29,246 nucleotides of DNA from a virus. This document shows, one piece after another, positions 5,059 through 29,246 of the stretch. The DNA lies in IMG/VR virus record IMGVR_UViG_3300047277_000134, positions 1 to 29,246 of that record, one strand, 5' to 3'. The notes beneath the pieces were generated by a model. That model worked only from the letters and a program-made list of their open reading frames with translations, did no database searches and had not been told where the DNA came from. Both the position numbers and the translations under genes were made by a program. The first letter of the stretch is position 1; every line of letters starts with the position of its first letter.

Positions 5059-7533
5059 TTATAAACCACTACTTTTAAAATTGCTACTATGATGTGTATG
5101 ATTGGCCGCCGCGTCAGTCATTCCTTGTACAAATGGTTTAAGAAAAAATAAATTAGCTCCAGGAACATATGTCTTAGCTAAATCTAAAGCACCCTTGGCA
5201 GGGTTTCCTTCCATAGCCGTTTTAGCCGATACAAAAGGTTGTAACAAAGCCCCTGTTGCAGGAGATATTAATAGCTGTGCTCCTAGCTCGGCTTTGTTAC
5301 TCTTCCAAGAAAGTAAATCCCCAGGAGCACCTGCCGCCCCTCCTCTGGCCATTGCTTCTGGAAGAAGAGAAATATCTCTTTCTTGAAAGCGTCTAAGAGT
5401 TTCTTTGTCTCCAGTAATCGCGGCATTTATTAAAATATTAAGTGCACCTGCCGCAGTAAATGACCCAAAAACTGCACCCATATTGTATAAACTTTCTTTA
5501 TTGGTCCAGTTGACTTTTCCACCCTGAATACCCGACGGGTCTAATCTTCTAGCTGCTCCAATAGTTGTATCTAGAAAAACTTTTGTTTGAGTAGCTTTAA
5601 ACTGCATTAAAAATCTTCTAGCTTCTCCTTCTAAAGAACCTGGAGTTGTATCTCCAAGTAAAATTCTTCTCTCTCTATTTCCTGGAATAGGCGCGCCACT
5701 TTTAATTTTATGTAATAGCCATTGCCCCATTCTTTCTTTATACGATGCTAGTTGATGTTCAGCTTTAATTGGATCACTCATTTCTGGATTCAATTCCATA
5801 AATTCATGTACGTCCATTCTAAAAATATTTCTCATTCCATTTTTAGTATTTAAACCTAATTTAGCAGTTATGTTTACTTCGTGTTGAGTTATCCCAAACT
5901 TGCCAAGATCGGCCATCATAATATTATTAATCTTCTTCCCATTGGCTGCATCTGCCAAATATGTCAGATACATTTTAGCATTTACTATATGAGCAGTTTT
6001 GTTAAAATAGTATGCTCCACTTGCTTTAGAAATAAATTCTCCAGACTGTCTAAGTTTTCCCGATAACCAACTCCCACCATTCATAGCGGATAATTCTTCA
6101 TGGCTTGTCATAATATCATGGTTAGAAAATAAATAAGAATCAGATAAAGAGTTGCCCCCATGCATGGCCGATTCTAGTAAAGATGGTATATAGAATTTAG
6201 CCGTATTGAACATGGAACTTATAAATCCTTCTTGCATTAAATTTCTATGTTGAACTGCTGTAGCAGCAGGGTCCATTATAATAGAAGTTATTCCAGCCGT
6301 TCCTAATTTAGCTTGTGCGGCTATAGTTCTAACGTCCATTAGAAAGCTACCTACTTTTGTAGGAGGCGGTATTTTAGGTCTTATTAATCCGTTCCATGCA
6401 ATATCTAATTGCTTAATAGAATGGCTTATTTCTAGATCAGTTTTGCCCTGTAGTTTTAATTGTCTTGAGGTTAAAGTTTTAACCATATCAAAACCTTTTT
6501 TTGGAGACGCTCCAAATATAGTCACTAGTCCTATATCTTTAGCTGCCATGTGACTATAGTTTTGCATTTGCGATGCTAACGTTTTGTGTTTTCCAAATTG
6601 GTTTAAATATGACTGTACTGATTCCCCACTTTTCCAAGTAGTAAATGATCTTGCTCTAGATCGTCTTTCTGCAATAGATACTGTAGTAGCTAAAGAACTA
6701 GGTACTTCATCATGTAGCATCGATTCTTCTGCTGTAATTTTTTTATATGAGTAATCTAAAATCTGATGAACTTTATTGGTAGCTGTTTCAGGCAACGCTT
6801 CTCCAGATTTAATCATGTTTTGAAATTCAATAATATCTCTAGTTGGAACTTCTGGAAATTCTTTATGAAATTGTAAATGTTTATCCAGTGATTTAAACCA
6901 CTCTAATTTATTTCCATAAATAGATGATCCGTCATGTGTCATGGCCCCACTATAATTTGATACATAGGCTACTCTTAATCCTGCTCCATTTAATTCTTTA
7001 TTGATTATTGAATAATGTCTTCTAAGAATTGATGCAGTTTGATTTATCTTATCTGCTCCTACCCCTTCATATTTCTTTCCTGAAAATATTACTTCTCTAA
7101 TGGGAACATCAAAAACTCCTGATCTAAATTCTCTAGCAAACCCTATTGCTTCTATGTCTCTATTTACAGAACCCCAGTATGCTTTTTGTTTTGTTTGAGT
7201 AAGCCCTTCTACATTTATCCCTGATCCTTTAACAACTGATGAGGTCTGTTCCATTAAACTAAGGGCGGCCTGAATATGATCTCCTCCCCACTGTTTATGA
7301 AGAATCTTATCTACATTCAATGCATACTTTCCAAGAGTATCTAGTTCTGTTAATAATTTTAACCCAACTTCTAATCCTCTAGCTTTTGAAAAAGAATCAA
7401 TAAATGATCTAAGCACTCCTCGATCAGTTATATTTTCTCTAACACTATTAATATATTTAATAGAACTTTTTAATTTGGTTGCGTCCTTGTCAGGATAATG
7501 GGCAGTTACACCTAATTCACATGGAGTTGTCAT
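5059..7533 (-). CDS. Large putative internal virion (ejection) protein, about 824 aa
   Basis: I prefer ATG at 7533, which overlaps the TAA of the upstream gene by one base (TAATG) behind an AAGGAA ribosome site, over an upstream TTG at 7551. The protein is long, helical and Ala/Gly/Lys-rich. A hydrophobic, membrane-compatible stretch near the C-terminus is followed by a Gly/Ala-rich segment (A-R-G-G-A-A-G-A-P-G-D-L-L). No enzyme motif is recognised. It directly follows the lysozyme- and ADP-ribosyltransferase-bearing virion genes and precedes the fibre gene, the position of T7 gp16-like ejection proteins. That role is inferred from size, composition and synteny. Confidence 0.65.
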   Translation of the reverse strand: MTTPCELGVTAHYPDKDATKLKSSIKYINSVRENITDRGVLRSFIDSFSKARGLEVGLKLLTELDTLGKYALNVDKILHKQWGGDHIQAALSLMEQTSSVVKGSGINVEGLTQTKQKAYWGSVNRDIEAIGFAREFRSGVFDVPIREVIFSGKKYEGVGADKINQTASILRRHYSIINKELNGAGLRVAYVSNYSGAMTHDGSSIYGNKLEWFKSLDKHLQFHKEFPEVPTRDIIEFQNMIKSGEALPETATNKVHQILDYSYKKITAEESMLHDEVPSSLATTVSIAERRSRARSFTTWKSGESVQSYLNQFGKHKTLASQMQNYSHMAAKDIGLVTIFGASPKKGFDMVKTLTSRQLKLQGKTDLEISHSIKQLDIAWNGLIRPKIPPPTKVGSFLMDVRTIAAQAKLGTAGITSIIMDPAATAVQHRNLMQEGFISSMFNTAKFYIPSLLESAMHGGNSLSDSYLFSNHDIMTSHEELSAMNGGSWLSGKLRQSGEFISKASGAYYFNKTAHIVNAKMYLTYLADAANGKKINNIMMADLGKFGITQHEVNITAKLGLNTKNGMRNIFRMDVHEFMELNPEMSDPIKAEHQLASYKERMGQWLLHKIKSGAPIPGNRERRILLGDTTPGSLEGEARRFLMQFKATQTKVFLDTTIGAARRLDPSGIQGGKVNWTNKESLYNMGAVFGSFTAAGALNILINAAITGDKETLRRFQERDISLLPEAMARGGAAGAPGDLLSWKSNKAELGAQLLISPATGALLQPFVSAKTAMEGNPAKGALDLAKTYVPGANLFFLKPFVQGMTDAAANHTHHSSNFKSSGL

Positions 7534-23503: not shown

Positions 23504-24178
23504 TTATGTTTTTATATCTACATTTACCATAGTATCGGAAACACCCCAACGCTCCTGCAACACAGGAGTAGGCTCCACAGTAACCACAACTGTCTCCTTG
23601 TTACCCTTACCATCGTCAAATCCCTTAAAATTACCAAACTCATCGATAAGTATATCCTTCGGACCCTCAGAGTCAAGCACCCCTGTATGTAAAGTTATAT
23701 TGATACTCGCAGGACCAGAAACCTTGTCGTCCTTCTTGCCATAGTAATCTGGAGAAGCCTTCTCCGCTGCCCACTTGTAACTGTCAATCCGTAACTTAGC
23801 CACAGGAACATCGTCCTTGCTAATAGCGTTCCTCGCTTCCTCGATCACTAAATCGTGGAATACATCTGCCCTCTGCTTCCTAGCTTGCTCATAGCGAATA
23901 CGGAACTCAGGGTGAAGGGACAGCCAAGCATAAATCCTACTAGACTCTGGCATGTCAGGCATACGGCAAATCTCACGAAGCGTCTTACCCGTTCTGATAT
24001 GGTTGCAAAGTTTATCCACTAATAATAGGCAGTAAACAAAATGAGAAGTATCAGGAACAGACTCCACTACGCAAAGTTTTCCAGTGTTAAGGTCTATTGT
24101 CTCATACGCTAATGTTGATTTGTTATAAATATGATATAAATTAGGTTCTGCGTTCTGTACAGATAGTGCATTTTCCAA
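23504..24178 (-). CDS. terS: Terminase small subunit, Sf6-type, 224 aa
   Basis: The central region (T-G-K-T-L-R-E-I-C-R-M-P-D-M-P-E-S-S-R-I-Y-A-W-L...P-E-F-R-I-R-Y-E-Q-A-R) is the helix-turn-helix DNA-recognition pattern of Sf6-like small terminases. It is followed by the oligomerising helix with L-R-I-D-S-Y-K-W-A-A-E-K-A-S-P-D-Y-Y-G. The protein would bind the packaging site and load the large subunit. The frame begins with TTG at 24178 behind a strong AAGGAGG; the nearby ATG is out of frame. It is first in the leftward operon, next to the repeat array. Confidence 0.88.
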   Translation of the reverse strand: MENALSVQNAEPNLYHIYNKSTLAYETIDLNTGKLCVVESVPDTSHFVYCLLLVDKLCNHIRTGKTLREICRMPDMPESSRIYAWLSLHPEFRIRYEQARKQRADVFHDLVIEEARNAISKDDVPVAKLRIDSYKWAAEKASPDYYGKKDDKVSGPASINITLHTGVLDSEGPKDILIDEFGNFKGFDDGKGNKETVVVTVEPTPVLQERWGVSDTMVNVDIKT

Positions 24179-24246: not shown

Positions 24247-24276
24247 ATCCTACTCTGGCAAATTTACTTATGTCAA
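24247..24276 (-). promoter_or_regulatory. Sigma-70-type promoter for the leftward late operon
   Basis: Leftward TTGACA (24276-24271) is followed after 18 bases by TAGGAT (24252-24247). An A-rich tract (AAAAATA repeats on this strand) lies immediately upstream, like an UP element. A TATTCT similar to the capsid promoter -10 overlaps at 24247-24242 but is spaced too far. It is about 70 bases before the terminase start. Confidence 0.5.
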
Positions 24277-24447: not shown

Positions 24448-24669
24448 CGTGTACGCGCGATAAGGAGCCGTGTACGCGCGATAAGGAGCCGTGTACGCGC
24501 GATAAGGAGCCGTGTACGCGCGATAAGGAGCCGTGTGCGCGCGATAAGGAGCCGTGTGCGCGCGATAAGGAGCCGTGTGCGCGCGATAAGGAGCCGTGTG
24601 CTTACTCATGTGCGCGCGATAAGGAAACGTGTGTACGCGTGTCGTGCGCTCGTGAGCGCGATAAAAGGA
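24448..24669. repeat. 21-bp iteron-like tandem array
   Basis: Seven contiguous 21-bp units run from 24448 to 24594. Each contains CGCGCGATAAGGAGC after CGTGTA (first four) or CGTGTG (last three). Diverged copies follow at about 24609-24630 and 24654-24669. Unit length is two helical turns. The alternating pyrimidine-purine part (GTGTGCGCGCG) is GC-rich against the AT-rich background and could adopt Z-DNA. The region sits between divergent operons and next to the small terminase gene. A replication origin or a packaging (pac) recognition site are the main options. The open frames across it are by-products of a repeat length divisible by three. Confidence 0.85.
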
Positions 24670-24672
24670 TAT

Positions 24673-24755
24673 GGTGTCACTTTGACCCCAGATCGGTGTC
24701 ACTTTGACCCCAGTGGTGTCACTTTGGCCCCATGCTCAGTGTCACTTTGACCCCA
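24673..24755 (+). promoter_or_regulatory. Four tandem GGTGTCACTTTGACCCCA boxes, candidate activator sites (copy A)
   Basis: Boxes begin at 24673, 24695, 24715 and 24738; the last two differ by one base each. Spacing of 20-23 bp puts them on the same helix face. They lie 30-110 bp upstream of a sigma-54 promoter, where enhancer-binding proteins bind. The same boxes recur upstream of the ubiquitin-like gene. Confidence 0.7.
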
Positions 24756-24784
24756 TGCCCTACGGAATCTCAGCTACTTACGAC

Positions 24785-24801
24785 TTGGCACGGCAATTGC
24801 T
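24785..24801 (+). promoter_or_regulatory. Sigma-54 (-24/-12) promoter, copy A
   Basis: TTGGCACGGCAATTGCT matches the sigma-54 consensus YTGGCACGrNNNTTGCW at every fixed position. The expected start is near 24812, giving a leader of about 53 nt before the ATG at 24865. Confidence 0.75.
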
Positions 24802-24864
24802 TGGTCAATCCACATCGGCAAACAATTTCGTTTTCCGAATTAAATTATTCACTGGAGAATTTTT

Positions 24865-25107
24865 ATGACTAAAACTATCGAACAACTTACTCTTGAGCTT
24901 GAATCTATGAAGCAGGCCCTAAAACAAGCAAAGATCGCTCAAAGACCTAAAACCCCTGTCACAGCTGAAATTCACACAGCCAAAGATTCAGGCAAACTAA
25001 GTATTAAAATAGCACAAGGTTTCAGAACCGCTTATTTAAACAAAGATCAAATTGAATTTATTATCAACAATCAAGAATCAGTTTTACAAATGGCGAATAA
25101 TCTTTAA
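24865..25107 (+). CDS. Hypothetical protein, 80 aa, first gene behind sigma-54 promoter A
   Basis: The N-terminal third is a coiled helix (I-E-Q-L-T-L-E-L-E-S-M-K-Q-A-L-K-Q-A-K). The rest looks like a small alpha/beta unit (V-T-A-E-I-H-T-A...K-L-S-I-K-I-A-Q-G-F-R-T-A-Y-L-N-K-D-Q-I-E-F-I). GGAGA precedes the ATG. No family is recognised. It is followed by a GC-rich hairpin and a second small gene, and shares regulation with the ubiquitin-like operon through the duplicated promoter block. Confidence 0.65.
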   Translation: MTKTIEQLTLELESMKQALKQAKIAQRPKTPVTAEIHTAKDSGKLSIKIAQGFRTAYLNKDQIEFIINNQESVLQMANNL

Positions 25108-25124
25108 TAAAAAAAAAAACAATA

Positions 25125-25150
25125 AGCCCGCCAATGGTGGGCTATATTTT
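25125..25150 (+). terminator. Hairpin between the two small rightward genes, partial terminator
   Basis: AGCCCGCC (25125-25132), loop AAT, GGTGGGCT (25136-25143) form an 8-bp stem with one G-U pair, followed by ATATTTT. The interrupted T tract suggests partial termination before the next gene. Confidence 0.6.
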
Positions 25151-25165
25151 AAAAGTGGAGAATCT

Positions 25166-25345
25166 ATGAATACTGCAATTATTGATCCAAACTGTTTACT
25201 TGCCAATTGGTCAGACTTTCCATTAACCGAGTCCAATGTATTGTCTCCAATTGAAATACTTACCTATGAGGCTCTAATAGACTCTGATGATGCCTTTCTA
25301 TGCATGGAATCCTTTTTTCCTAATAGTGATTTCAATGAAGCGTAA
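25166..25345 (+). CDS. Hypothetical acidic protein, 59 aa
   Basis: I choose ATG at 25166 because it has a good GTGGAG ribosome site; a longer frame from 25052 would overlap the upstream gene and run through the hairpin. The protein is acidic and helical (S-P-I-E-I-L-T-Y-E-A-L-I-D-S-D-D-A-F-L) without known motifs. The small size, acidity and position would fit an inhibitor-type phage protein, but nothing in the sequence shows this. Confidence 0.55.
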   Translation: MNTAIIDPNCLLANWSDFPLTESNVLSPIEILTYEALIDSDDAFLCMESFFPNSDFNEA

Positions 25346-25444
25346 CATATCGCGCTGTGAGATGCTTGCTTTGCTCGTAGCGATAGGAATTACTGTAAAA
25401 ATAATAGAGGGCATTTTTTTATTTTAATTTATTTTTGGTCACTG

Positions 25445-25474
25445 ACTCGGCTTGTCATTAGCGGTCGAGTTTTT
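25445..25474 (+). terminator. Weak terminator-like hairpin after the small-gene operon
   Basis: ACTCG (25445-25449) pairs with CGAGT (25466-25470) around a 16-nt loop, and five T residues follow. It is about 100 bases after the last stop of the rightward small-gene operon. Confidence 0.4.
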
Positions 25475-25519
25475 GCCATAAATTACAGCCACTTTATAGC
25501 TAAACAATTTTTATTACTT

Positions 25520-25863
25520 GTTACACTTGTTACATGTTACAGCTACTTCCCAACACTTTCACGTATATGTGTTTTTCATTTTTCTCTCGGGACCTGTTTT
25601 TTGCATTGATTAAAGTTATAGAACTAGTATTGTAACATACACCTAAACCTTGCCAAAATCCCTGTAATATCGGTCATGTTACATGTTACAGCTACGCAAA
25701 AGTTTGCATGGCAGAAACGCATCTTGTCACTGTAACATTTTTACGTCAGTTTTGAGTCATTTCGTAACGCACGAGATAATACTCCATGTGTCTATACAAT
25801 CTTCATTTTGATGCCTATAATCATGTTACAGCGACACCTACAGTCACGTTTTGGGGTTGTAAC
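25520..25863. promoter_or_regulatory. Cluster of GTTACA / TGTAAC motifs in three inverted-pair modules
   Basis: The gene-free stretch 25346-26347 contains GTTACA at 25520, 25529, 25536, 25678, 25685 and 25825, and TGTAAC at 25631, 25731 and 25858. In each of three modules a rightward ATGTTACA is followed by its inverse TGTAACAT (9-bp perfect arms at 25683-25691 and 25730-25738). Nine hexamers in about 345 bases is far above chance. Rightward copies extend to GTTACAGCTAC or GTTACAGCGAC. They look like binding sites for a dimeric DNA-binding protein; function is unknown. Confidence 0.65.
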
Positions 25864-25900
25864 ATTTACCACGCTACGCGTTTCTGCATAGCAAATGCCC

Positions 25901-25964
25901 TAAAAATAAGCCCCCTAATAAGCCCTAAAAAAGCCCCTAATAAGCCCTAAAAAAGCCCCTAAAT
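25901..25964. repeat. 22-bp direct repeat, CCCTA-rich / telomere-like
   Basis: Two perfect 22-bp units (25919-25940 and 25941-25962) with partial copies on both sides contain AAGCCCTA and AAGCCCCTAA. The minus strand has five or more runs of 3-5 G separated by 7-8 bases (TTAGGG-like), so a quadruplex is conceivable. Confidence 0.7.
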
Positions 25965-26041
25965 AGGCTAAACTGCCAAGGTGCAACCAACGCAGAATGG
26001 CTTGACTTGCTATCATTATAGTCGGTTTTTCTTGCCGTAAA

Positions 26042-26179
26042 TCGGCACTGACGGCAAGAAACGTGCCAATTTGGATCGGTGTCACTTTGACCCCAGATCG
26101 GTGTCACTTTGTCCCACGGCAAGAAACGTGCCAAGTCGTAACGGTGTCACTTCGGCACTGACGGCAAGAAGTGTGCCAA
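26042..26179 (-). promoter_or_regulatory. Three repeated sigma-54-like elements facing left
   Basis: ACGGCAAGAAACGTGCCAA occurs at 26051-26069 and 26116-26134, and a variant at 26161-26179. On the minus strand each reads TTGGCAC-N6-TTGC, keeping the -24 GG and -12 GC at the correct 12-bp spacing. Expected starts would be near 26042, 26107 and 26152. A CTTGCCGT at 26031-26038 also pairs with ACGGCAAG at 26051-26058. No gene lies to the left for 700 bases, so they may drive RNA, bind RNA polymerase non-productively, or be repeats of another kind. Confidence 0.5.
26078..26152 (+). promoter_or_regulatory. GGTGTCACTTTGACCCCA boxes, candidate activator sites (copy B)
   Basis: One perfect box at 26078-26095, a second with one change at 26100-26116 and a partial one at 26143-26150. 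The 34 bases 26078-26111 are identical to 24673-24706 including the spacer. They lie 57-130 bp upstream of sigma-54 promoter B. Confidence 0.7.
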
Positions 26180-26208
26180 CACTGGCAATGTGAAATCGGT
26201 AGGTTAGC

Positions 26209-26225
26209 TTGGCACGGCAATTGCA
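26209..26225 (+). promoter_or_regulatory. Sigma-54 (-24/-12) promoter, copy B
   Basis: TTGGCACGGCAATTGCA matches the sigma-54 consensus at all fixed positions and shares 16 of 17 bases with copy A. The expected start is G26236, which is exactly the first base of the hairpin described next. It precedes the ubiquitin-like operon. Confidence 0.75.
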
Positions 26226-26235
26226 AGGTCAATTC

Positions 26236-26304
26236 GGCAATCGTCATCAAGCCATTCCAGCTATCTCGATTGCCACCCCATTAATTTAATTAGTGGGTTT
26301 TTTT
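26236..26304 (+). ncRNA. Candidate sigma-54-driven structured small RNA or leader
   Basis: From the predicted start, GGCAATCG (26236-26243) pairs perfectly with CGATTGCC (26267-26274) around a 23-nt loop. An intrinsic terminator (26277-26304) follows directly. The result is either a roughly 69-nt small RNA or a 5' attenuator in front of the ubiquitin-like gene. Existence of the transcript is inferred. Confidence 0.5.
26277..26304 (+). terminator. Intrinsic terminator upstream of the ubiquitin-like gene
   Basis: CCCATTAA (26277-26284) pairs with TTAGTGGG (26290-26297) with one wobble, and seven T residues follow. It stands between sigma-54 promoter B and the ubiquitin-like ATG, so transcription must read through it, or it ends a small RNA. 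Confidence 0.7.
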
Positions 26305-26347: not shown

Positions 26348-26554
26348 ATGATTACAGTAACAGTTAAGATAATGGGACGAGCACAACCTGAAGTAATAGA
26401 GGATTTTTCAGGAACAACAGTACAAGAATTAATGAACAGACTCAACCTAGCAGGGAACTACACGATTAATATTGGCGGTGTACCTGCTCAAACAACATCA
26501 ACTCTTGTATTTGGTAGCTACGTTGTATTCGCCCCAAGCGTAAAGGGCGCATAG
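26348..26554 (+). CDS. Ubiquitin-like beta-grasp modifier (MoaD/ThiS-type), 68 aa
   Basis: The chain fits a beta-grasp fold: strand M-I-T-V-T-V-K-I-M, second strand, helix T-V-Q-E-L-M-N-R-L-N-L, then Y-T-I-N-I-G-G-V-P-A...L-V-F-G-S-Y-V-V-F-A-P-S-V-K-G-A. Spacing and the F-A-P-x-V-K-G end are typical of the small bacterial Ub-like proteins encoded with E1, E2 and JAB genes. The C-terminus is Gly67-Ala68, not Gly-Gly, so removal of Ala would expose a conjugable Gly. An AGGAGAT ribosome site precedes ATG. The gene lies behind sigma-54 promoter B and is followed by a terminator, then by the E2, E1 and protease genes. A sulfur carrier is the alternative, less likely given the E2-like neighbour. 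Confidence 0.85.
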   Translation: MITVTVKIMGRAQPEVIEDFSGTTVQELMNRLNLAGNYTINIGGVPAQTTSTLVFGSYVVFAPSVKGA

Positions 26555-26565
26555 TCTCCTATATT

Positions 26566-26589
26566 AGCGGTAGAAATACCGCTTCTTTT
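26566..26589 (+). terminator. Intrinsic terminator after the ubiquitin-like gene
   Basis: AGCGGTA (26566-26572), GAAA tetraloop, TACCGCT (26577-26583), then TCTTTT. A stable 7-bp stem with a short U-rich tract is likely to terminate part of the transcripts, so the modifier mRNA should exceed that of the downstream enzymes. Confidence 0.75.
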
Positions 26590-26663
26590 ATTGAACTGGC
26601 AATCTAAGTCTTGTCAATTGAATAAAGGAATATTTTTTCCTTATACAAACACTGGAGGTTATT

Positions 26664-27908
26664 ATGTTTGTCGAATCTGGAGAGTTACTTACGCCCGCTT
26701 TTAAGCGAGCTATCTACGACAATCCCTTGTTACAAAATTTCGAGACTAACAAGGAATTACTGGAAAGTTTAAAGAACAGTAACGATGGGAATTCTCAGGA
26801 AATTGAGAGGCGTGAAAGAGAGCTAGTGGGGCTTAAAATCAGTTTAAATGTAGGTACTCAGAAAGTAGGACGATTTATAACAAGTCAAGCACTTCTGGCA
26901 AAGCTGATAGATAAAAATAAGAATGATATTAACATTGACTTCTTTGATAAAGAGAAGATTGAAGCGTTTTTTAATTCTATGTCCTTGACATTTGTGGATT
27001 TATATTTATCGACAGATTGTTATGAAGGGGTACTAACGTATATAAGACCTACTAGGTATATTGAAGCCATGCCTGTGCCTCCTTTAATGATAAAAGTTAT
27101 GTATATTTTAAAGAATAATGTTTTGACTTTTAGTACCGTACACGTAAGGACTGTCATTAGGGCTGTTTCTCTTTCTTTTATACACCCTCATATATCTAGT
27201 ATTACTAATGGTAATGTTAAGATATGTCTAGGTAATTTTATAGATGTATTAAGTGAAAATAGTGCTTCTGTAGTGATTAGTGGGTATCAAGATCACGTTG
27301 TAATGATTGAGAATTTATTATCTACATATAATTCTGATTCTCCTTATATTTCATTAAATGAGTTATCACTGTCAATGCTTACTACTGATGTATTCCACTG
27401 TTCTCCACATAAAATACAGGCATCAGGATTCAGTATATTGGGCAAAAGAATAGAAGACCACATTGTAAATAGATCAATTGGTTATCCGTATAATATTAAA
27501 GTAATTGAGTTAATTGGATTGGATGAATTAGTTAAATGGGAAGAGGCGGTTAAGAAGAATACATACTCTTCTATACTAGAAGAGACTTTATTAGGAATAT
27601 CTTTTCTTGATCACGATGGCGATGATTACGAGATGCTTCAGAGTTTAACCTCTTATAGAAAAAAATTAATTACGGTATTTGGAGAGGGGTTAGATAATCC
27701 TAATGAGTATTCATATTTTGAAGATGGTGAAGATGGTGATGATGAAGAGAGTGATACTAATTTACAAAGAATTAGTGAAGATAGTTTTAATGACGTATTA
27801 GAACAGTGGACTAGGTATTTAAAGGGACGTGGACAAGGTGTATTTAATATTAAAGTAGCTGAATTTAGAATCTTTATTACAGAAGAGGTATCAAATGTAC
27901 TTAACTAG
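26664..27908 (+). CDS. E2-like ubiquitin-conjugating-type protein, 414 aa
   Basis: Residues 174-176 H-P-H followed by I-S-S-I-T-N-G-N-V-K-I-C-L-G (Cys188) reproduce the E2 active-site pattern H-P-x-(I/V)...G-x-(I/V)-C-L, with the candidate catalytic Cys in C-L-G. The preceding V-M-Y-I-L-K-N...L-T-F-S-T-V-H strands and the P-V-P-P loop, and the following I-E-N-L-L-S-T-Y-N-S-D-S-P-Y-I, fit the UBC/RWD-type fold of bacterial E2-like proteins. It is much longer than a bare E2 (about 150 residues). The N-terminal 90 residues are helical, and the C-terminal part contains a helical region and an acidic stretch (351-366). A GGAGG site precedes ATG. The E1 gene overlaps its 3' end by 14 bases. Transfer of the modifier to a target is inferred. 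Confidence 0.78.
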   Translation: MFVESGELLTPAFKRAIYDNPLLQNFETNKELLESLKNSNDGNSQEIERRERELVGLKISLNVGTQKVGRFITSQALLAKLIDKNKNDINIDFFDKEKIEAFFNSMSLTFVDLYLSTDCYEGVLTYIRPTRYIEAMPVPPLMIKVMYILKNNVLTFSTVHVRTVIRAVSLSFIHPHISSITNGNVKICLGNFIDVLSENSASVVISGYQDHVVMIENLLSTYNSDSPYISLNELSLSMLTTDVFHCSPHKIQASGFSILGKRIEDHIVNRSIGYPYNIKVIELIGLDELVKWEEAVKKNTYSSILEETLLGISFLDHDGDDYEMLQSLTSYRKKLITVFGEGLDNPNEYSYFEDGEDGDDEESDTNLQRISEDSFNDVLEQWTRYLKGRGQGVFNIKVAEFRIFITEEVSNVLN

Positions 27909-28563
27909 GCACAGGGATATATTAGGACAAATAGACCTTAACTACCCTATCAATATTATAGGGGCGGGTTCTATTGGCAGTTATGCGTGTTTGGCACTAG
28001 CTAAACTTGGCTTTACTGATATTACTATTGCAGACGATGGTAAAGTGGAGGAAGAAAATATTGCCCCACAATTATATAGGCTAAAGGATATTGGTAAATT
28101 TAAAGTAGATTGTTTAAAGAGAATGATAAAGGAGCAGACGGGAGTTGATATTATTGCAATTCCTACAAGGATTAATACTCTTAATACTGATCACGTAGAG
28201 GGAGGACTAACAATATTGGCAGTAGATACAATGACAGCGAGGAAAATATTATTCGTTTCTATTTGTTCTTCTTTTTTTATTGATGCACGAATGGCCATTG
28301 AGTTTTTGACTATTATTTCTATTAAGTCAGGGCCTATATTCAACAAACAGCATAAATATTACTCTGATACTTTATTTGACGATAGTGATGCAGTTCAGGA
28401 AGCGTGTACTAATAAAGCAATTGCTTATACATCATTAATAGCGGGGGGATTGATTGCTAGGACAGTTATGGAACAGTTGAGGGATAAAGATAATTACAGA
28501 TCGCAGACATTGAATTTTGATATTAATAATTTAGATATGGTGAGGTTAATATGCCCAGAATAA
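27895..28563 (+). CDS. ThiF/E1-like modifier-activating enzyme, 222 aa
   Basis: The Rossmann-type adenylation domain shows I-I-G-A-G-S-I-G-S (nucleotide loop, 21-29), the acidic pair A-D-D at 46-48, N-I-A-P-Q-L-Y-R-L-K-D-I-G-K-F-K (55-70, the N...R...K signature) and L-A-V-D-T-M-T-A-R (Asp111, Arg116). Cys171 in E-A-C-T-N-K-A is the candidate thioester cysteine. There is no zinc-binding CxxC pair. Such enzymes adenylate the modifier's C-terminal Gly with ATP and pass it to E2. The length is that of a minimal E1-like protein. AGAGG precedes ATG. It overlaps the E2 gene by 14 bases and the JAB gene by 13 bases, so all three are translationally coupled. Confidence 0.87.
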   Translation: MYLTRHRDILGQIDLNYPINIIGAGSIGSYACLALAKLGFTDITIADDGKVEEENIAPQLYRLKDIGKFKVDCLKRMIKEQTGVDIIAIPTRINTLNTDHVEGGLTILAVDTMTARKILFVSICSSFFIDARMAIEFLTIISIKSGPIFNKQHKYYSDTLFDDSDAVQEACTNKAIAYTSLIAGGLIARTVMEQLRDKDNYRSQTLNFDINNLDMVRLICPE

Positions 28564-29246
28564 TAATTCCTTTAGAGATAAAGACTAAAATACAATTTAT
28601 AGTTGATAATTGTAGCATGGAAGTAAGCGGATTAGGTACAGTTAAATTTGATGTAGAAGAAAATGCTTATAGAGTAATTGATGTAATTTTATTAGATCAA
28701 GAGGTAGGTTCTGCTCATACTGACCTTGATGATAATGCCGTAGCTAGGGCTTGTTATGATATGAGAGACAGTGAAGGAGAGTTGGCGTTTTGGTGGCATA
28801 GTCACGTTAATATGTCTACTAATTGGTCAGGTCAAGATTATGAGACTATGGGTTTAATTGGCAAGCATGGGCTTTGTGTTGCAGTAGTATTTAATAAAAA
28901 GAATGAGATGCGAGGGGCATTAGCAATGTCTCCAGTAGGTTTTCCTTATATTAGATTGGACAATGTAAAAATAGATATTGAATACGGACATACATTTAGT
29001 GATTTAGATTTATTGCAAGAGATAAAGGATAAGGTCAAGCCTAAAAAGTATGCCCCTATTGTTAATGAATATGAACATGGATACGGATACGGATACGGCC
29101 ATCAAAGTAATCAAAGTAAGCAAAGTAAGCAAAGTAAGCAAAGTAAGCAAAGTAAATCGGAAGATGAGCAATGGGAGACTGATATGAAAAACTATGCTCA
29201 TATTTGTTGGAAAGATATGACTACATTAGAGAAAGCGTCTTATAAA
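28551..29246 (+). CDS. JAB/JAMM metalloprotease (deubiquitinase-like), truncated by window end
   Basis: The 232 visible residues contain a complete JAMM motif: Glu24 in M-E-V-S-G-L-G, and H-S-H-V-N-M-S-T-N-W-S-G-Q-D with His83, His85, Ser93 and Asp96 at the exact HxH-x7-S-x2-D spacing. In Ub-like systems this zinc protease trims the modifier's C-terminus and removes it from targets. After the catalytic domain comes a low-complexity linker (G-Y-G-Y-G-Y-G-H, then Q-S-K repeats, 177-202) and the start of another region (D-M-K-N-Y-A-H-I-C-W) that continues past the edge. ATG at 28551 has GAGG 5 bases upstream and overlaps the E1 gene. Confidence 0.9.
   Translation, partial: MPRIIIPLEIKTKIQFIVDNCSMEVSGLGTVKFDVEENAYRVIDVILLDQEVGSAHTDLDDNAVARACYDMRDSEGELAFWWHSHVNMSTNWSGQDYETMGLIGKHGLCVAVVFNKKNEMRGALAMSPVGFPYIRLDNVKIDIEYGHTFSDLDLLQEIKDKVKPKKYAPIVNEYEHGYGYGYGHQSNQSKQSKQSKQSKQSKSEDEQWETDMKNYAHICWKDMTTLEKASYK
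29103..29156 (+). repeat. 9-bp in-frame microsatellite (CAAAGTAAG) in the JAB gene
   Basis: Six units of CAAAGTAAN encode a Gln-Ser-Lys/Asn repeat linker. Three GGATAC units just before it encode Gly-Tyr. Copy number changes would alter linker length without frameshift. Confidence 0.85.

Follow-up and report, generated by a model that had tools for sequence, protein, structure and literature searches.

A predicted sigma-54 control region with enhancer-like box arrays between the divergent genes of a podovirus-like phage

Sigma-54 promoters open only through a dedicated sensor ATPase, so that a phage relying on them ties gene expression to one chosen host signal. The question raised by this locus is whether a phage has placed genes under such control and, if so, which genes and which signal. 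The window, the whole stretch of DNA analysed, comes from an IMG/VR virus record and covers 29.2 kb of the genome of a podovirus-like phage. It has Pfam matches to an Sf6-type small terminase, a large terminase and a head-tail connector, and it encodes a GH25 endolysin. The leftward virion genes begin at 24178 with the Sf6-like small terminase gene (23504-24178, minus strand; assigned by Pfam and comparison with relatives), and the rightward small genes and the Ub-like/414-aa/ThiF/JAB set begin at 24865. Repeat-rich non-coding DNA lies between and among the genes of both directions. Seven near-perfect 21-bp tandem repeats (CGTGTACGCGCGATAAGGAGC) occupy 24448-24599, in the interval that separates the small terminase gene from the boxes described below. 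Within 350 non-coding bases at 25519-25870 there are nine copies of TGTTACA/TGTAACA, direct and inverted, with seven more in the rest of the window; they resemble a second, separate operator- or iteron-like cluster. A sigma-70-type promoter-like sequence, TTGACA-18-TAGGAT (24247-24276, minus strand), is found 5' of the small terminase gene and is a candidate promoter for the leftward virion operon.

Two 17-mers on the plus strand, at 24785-24801 and 26209-26225, consist of TTGGCACGGCAATTGC followed by T or A and are identical at 16 of 17 positions. Promoter 1, TTGGCACGGCAATTGCT, has a predicted +1 at 24812, and promoter 2, TTGGCACGGCAATTGCA, at 26236, counted from the -12 C at 26224. Both fit TTGGCACG-N4-TTGC exactly, with GG at -24 and GC at -12 (consensus and enhancer distance after PMC3844500 and PMC1274295). 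Three sigma-54-like core matches on the minus strand, absent from the first-pass annotation, face the terminase side: TTGGCACGTTTCTTGC at 26054-26069, an element at 26119-26134 that, together with its upstream bases, shares the 15-base TTACGACTTGGCACG with promoter 1, and TTGGCACACTTCTTGC at 26164-26179. The exact core TTGGCAC-N5-TTGC thus occurs five times in the window, against 0.37 expected with one mismatch allowed, and no shuffle reached five; 1.13 Mb of DNA from related phages contained no exact match. The five sites are copies of two sequence types rather than independent occurrences, and conservation is therefore a better test than counts.

Each plus-strand element is preceded by tandem boxes. 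Four enhancer-like copies of GGTGTCACTTTGACCCCA start at 24673, 24695, 24715 and 24738 (24673-24755, plus strand), with their GTCA cores at -110, -88, -68 and -45 relative to the T of the -24 TGG. The second array (26078-26156, plus strand) has boxes at 26078 and 26100 and a degenerate copy at 26143, with cores at -129, -107 and -64 from promoter 2. The box is a GTCA-N3-TGAC dyad, GGTGTCA-CTT-TGACCCC, with one arm mismatch, and the six copies compare with none expected in 100 shuffles. The blocks share 34 identical bases (24673-24706 and 26078-26111). The first-pass annotation had described two consensus 17-bp elements, tandem boxes upstream of each and 34 bases common to the blocks, and all of this was confirmed. 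With array cores at -45 to -129 of the -24 element, both blocks have upstream sites within about 70-150 bp, the usual sigma-54 enhancer distance (PMC3844500).

Conservation was examined by searching IMG/VR for a pair of GTCA-N3-TGAC sites upstream of TGGCAC, with the -12 element left free. Most of the 13 stretches recovered were inside coding sequence, and an intact -12 TTGC in non-coding DNA was present in two, L297 and L299. Both prove to be relatives of the window phage, with large terminases 52-53% and small terminases about 38% identical to its own. Capsid and portal of L299 are 46% identical to those of the window, and L297 also encodes Ub-like (41%; 67 aa in L297), JAB (43%) and ThiF (33%) proteins. 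The DNA of the two contigs is about 97.5-98.7% identical, and they were counted as one lineage. Their element, CTACTTACGACTTGGCACG-(CTGT or TTGT)-TTGC, fits the sigma-54 pattern exactly. A second lineage is represented by L039 (large terminase 47-52% and portal 40% identical to the window phage), which has an exact 18-mer box and, in register, TTGGCATG-CATC-TTGT; with two changes from the pattern, this module match is weaker than that of L297/L299. In that contig, sites that retain the GG and have no more than two mismatches occur about 0.02 times per 150 nt. Counted from the -24 element, the boxes lie at -90/-66/-47 in L297 and -99/-76/-43 in L039. When the five blocks are aligned, the -24/-12 letters persist and the spacer is GCAA, CTGT/TTGT or CATC; invariant letters around a free 4-base spacer are the trace expected of selection by the sigma-54 holoenzyme.

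The sigma-54/box module was not found in more distant relatives. No match was returned in IMG/VR for the promoter 26-mer or for a ThiF query, nor for the region itself when phage and plasmid collections were searched at the DNA level, and a box-like match in contig L124 sits in coding sequence and was judged to be due to chance. In L297, the place corresponding to the 21-bp repeats of the window holds G+C-rich GTGTGTATGTG-type repeats. The same contig has a second degenerate block at 5693-5760, with an opposite-strand sigma-54-like element (one mismatch) beside two or three GTCAAAATGGC-type boxes, an arrangement that recalls block 2 of the window.

Because the -24/-12 letters are kept while the spacer varies, the boxes lie at a typical enhancer distance and a hairpin starts exactly at the +1 of promoter 2 (see below), there is good support for sigma-54 promoters equipped with upstream enhancer arrays, and use of sigma-54 at the window promoters is very probable.

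The activator is a more tentative matter. The NorR consensus GT-N7-AC served as a lead and was then tested. Published NorR sites are tandem GT-N7-AC sequences with GTCA/TGAC arms (PMC1274295), and the window has this arrangement, with GTCACTTTGAC present four times in addition to degenerate copies. Upstream of E. coli norVW the NorR sites GTCAATTTGAC, GTCATATCGAC and GTCATTTTGAC stand at -111, -90 and -66, counted in the same way from the -24 TGG, and arrays at other NorR loci stand, e.g., at -99/-79/-54, -109/-89/-64 or -88/-66. A profile was built from 20 distinct bacterial sites, NorR being the one bEBP family compared. By this profile the four intact boxes outscore every other site in the window, a result equalled by only 0.34% of column-permuted profiles. 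At 12.6 the boxes score near the bottom of the range for true NorR sites (12.4-18.5), and such a score is expected about 0.7 times per 29 kb by chance; the first box of L297 scores lower, at 9.8. Since the boxes agree with NorR enhancers in sequence, spacing and array position, the single most likely activator is a host NorR or NorR-like bEBP, in which case the promoters would respond to nitric oxide. A NorR-type activator is the best lead and is not proven; we rate it at somewhat below an even chance.

As the comparison covered one bEBP family, other activators with a similar dyad are possible. The promoters could be served by a bEBP other than NorR, encoded for instance in the missing part of the phage genome, and the signal would then not be nitric oxide. 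This is a close contender that falls just short of being probable. It accords with box scores that reach only the low end of the NorR profile, with the failure to find an identical tandem array among about 85,000 species genomes and with the incompleteness of the contigs, but it leaves aside that spacing and position of the arrays are within a few bases of those at NorR loci. It also has to contend with the outcome of the scan for an enhancer-binding protein gene that the first-pass annotation had proposed: none is present on the window or on the other module-carrying contigs, all of which are fragments. The hosts of named phages with a related terminase or capsid include Pelagibacter, Vibrio, Alteromonas, Methylophilales and Rhodoferax. 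A sigma-54 match was found in neither of two Pelagibacteraceae genomes, as against four other bins with related phage contigs, and these bins may be incomplete or mis-binned. The exact core TGTCACTTTGACC gave scattered single matches in 200 genomes of one phylum, with no clue to the host.

As to the genes served, the first-pass annotation held that the duplicated block drives two operons, a small-gene operon and the Ub-like operon. Promoter 1 leads through a 53-nt leader directly into an 80-aa gene (24865-25107, plus strand); L039 has a similar gene of 81 aa on the corresponding side (E = 3e-4 in a single comparison). The next ORF (59 aa, 25166-25345, plus strand) is 3' of a terminator-like hairpin at 25125-25143. 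Control of the Ub-like operon from 26209 is doubtful, because an intrinsic terminator at 26277-26304, which had been overlooked, should end the transcript of promoter 2 after 69 nt. Most of the transcription initiated there would be expected to end at about 26304, short of the gene for the 68-aa Ub-like (beta-grasp-like) protein (26348-26554, plus strand), which has no Pfam family. Further downstream (26664-29246, plus strand), a 414-aa protein is followed by ThiF/E1-like (27895-28563) and JAB-like (28551 to the window end) genes, assigned by domain searches and comparison with L297. An in-frame 9-base tandem repeat of about six copies (29103-29155) gives the JAB-like gene a (QSK)n linker.

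A small RNA or an attenuated leader is thus the more likely product of promoter 2. The predicted 69-nt RNA (26236-26304, plus strand; from fold, scan and shuffles) contains a 5' hairpin at 26236-26274, a terminator hairpin at 26277-26297 and T7 at 26298-26304. It would form the stem GGCAAUCG...CGAUUGCC, followed by CCCAUUAAUUUAAUUAGUGGG-U7 (z = -6.6). A perfect 8-bp stem joined to an intrinsic terminator occurs at one place on both strands of the window, starting exactly at 26236, and in none of 40 dinucleotide shuffles; the position of this hairpin therefore supports the predicted start of promoter 2. A promoter directly followed by a short structured transcript with a GC stem and U-tract, and free of an ORF, makes a discrete small RNA a candidate that is, on balance, favoured. 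The RNA matched no Rfam family, and no equivalent was found downstream of the promoter in L297. A search for its targets within the window gave a best duplex that was not significant over 28 genes. At least 119 other IMG/VR stretches combine a sigma-54 core with a T-run; among the matches listed, two have any terminator and neither resembles the one here. The 11-mer TCAAGCCATTC is common to the RNA (26247-26257, plus strand) and a possible minus-strand transcript (25995-26005) that ends at a terminator-like site at 25969-25954; it might be a common seed, a post hoc observation that serves as a lead only.

The other product, an attenuated leader at 26236-26304 with regulated read-through into the Ub-like operon, would restore the control by promoter 2 that the first-pass annotation had assumed, but is rather unlikely. 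The Ub-like gene begins 44 nt past the terminator, with no good sigma-70-like promoter found between them, and in L297 the Ub-like/JAB/ThiF set is on the strand downstream of the conserved promoter; these points speak for a leader. The strength of the two-hairpin fold, whose stem is perfect from +1, speaks against it, as does the fact that neither an alternative antiterminator fold nor a leader peptide was identified. In L297 the conserved sigma-54 promoter leads into a 110-aa gene, followed on the same strand, past long non-coding stretches, by an Xre-like protein, which looks like an Xre-type regulator, and by the Ub-like, JAB and ThiF genes. Since this promoter precedes the strand that bears them, the Ub-like side may plausibly be under sigma-54 control in this lineage, though in the window not by way of promoter 2 directly. 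The Ub-like/large protein/JAB/ThiF set is common to window 26348-29246 and L297 291-4019, with a different gene order, and the Ub-like protein ends in VKGGC in L297 and in VKGA in the window.

The boxes might instead be iterons or packaging sites for a replication initiator or the small terminase, with the likeness to sigma-54 and NorR sites incidental. In the window, L297, L299 and L039 alike, the arrays adjoin the small terminase gene; about two helical turns separate successive repeats, further repeats occur in the vicinity, and the cumulative GC skew turns at about 24-26 kb. The skew turn, however, coincides also with the switch in gene direction, and this explanation does not account for -24/-12 letters kept at a fixed place 3' of the arrays with a free spacer, for the dyad symmetry of the boxes or for an RNA starting at +1; we consider it improbable. 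Remnants of mobile elements, or host promoter DNA gained by chance, could give duplicate blocks with a bacterial-type promoter, but this idea was dropped as very improbable, given that no transposase gene is seen around the blocks, that both are in direct orientation, that the species genomes lack the identical array, and that relatives keep the module at the same position despite terminase and capsid identities of only about 46-53%.

In the preferred explanation, the DNA that separates the leftward virion genes from those running rightward is a control region of the enhancer-dependent (sigma-54) type. A bEBP-class activator, from the host or the missing part of the phage genome, would bind the tandem GTCA-N3-TGAC dyads, which lie some 45-130 bp upstream of the -24/-12 element, and would open RNAP-sigma54 by hydrolysing ATP. 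Promoter 1 would transcribe the first rightward small gene. Promoter 2, in the duplicate block, would give the 69-nt RNA, with its first hairpin from +1 and its end at the intrinsic terminator, and the genes beyond, the Ub-like set included, would be reached only by read-through or antitermination. The activator may be a host NorR or NorR-like bEBP, with nitric oxide as the signal. This explanation as a whole seems probable. That a podovirus-like lineage puts its first rightward genes, together with a small RNA in the window phage, under host RpoN and the NO sensor NorR is a more speculative and rather doubtful proposition; if true, the infection programme reads the nitric oxide or anaerobic state of the host. 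In the open full-text literature, outside which most subscription journals lie, no report of phage promoters of this kind or of NorR use by phages was found.

Several known systems offer comparisons. The downstream genes recall the PRTRC-type Ub-like/ThiF/JAB set, as the window ThiF matches TIGR03736 (E 6e-12, below the family cut-off) and has Ub-like and JAB neighbours; the window set is divergent, belongs to a podovirus-like phage and is only context for the promoter finding. Bacterial sigma-54-dependent small RNAs exist, e.g., Qrr and GlmY. They share with the predicted RNA a sigma-54 promoter directly 5' of a short, structured, intrinsically terminated transcript, whereas the window RNA is phage-borne, 69 nt long and without an Rfam match. 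The closest parallel to the arrays is the sigma-54-dependent, NO-responsive norVW of E. coli, where tandem GTCA-N3-(T/C)GAC dyads 20-24 bp apart precede a TGGCACG-type element at -111/-90/-66, compared with -110/-88/-68/-45 in the window. The window array differs in being on a phage, before phage genes and a predicted small RNA, in having four sites in block 1 and in having no norR gene nearby. The box centre is A/T only at norVW and CTT or CGT in the window.
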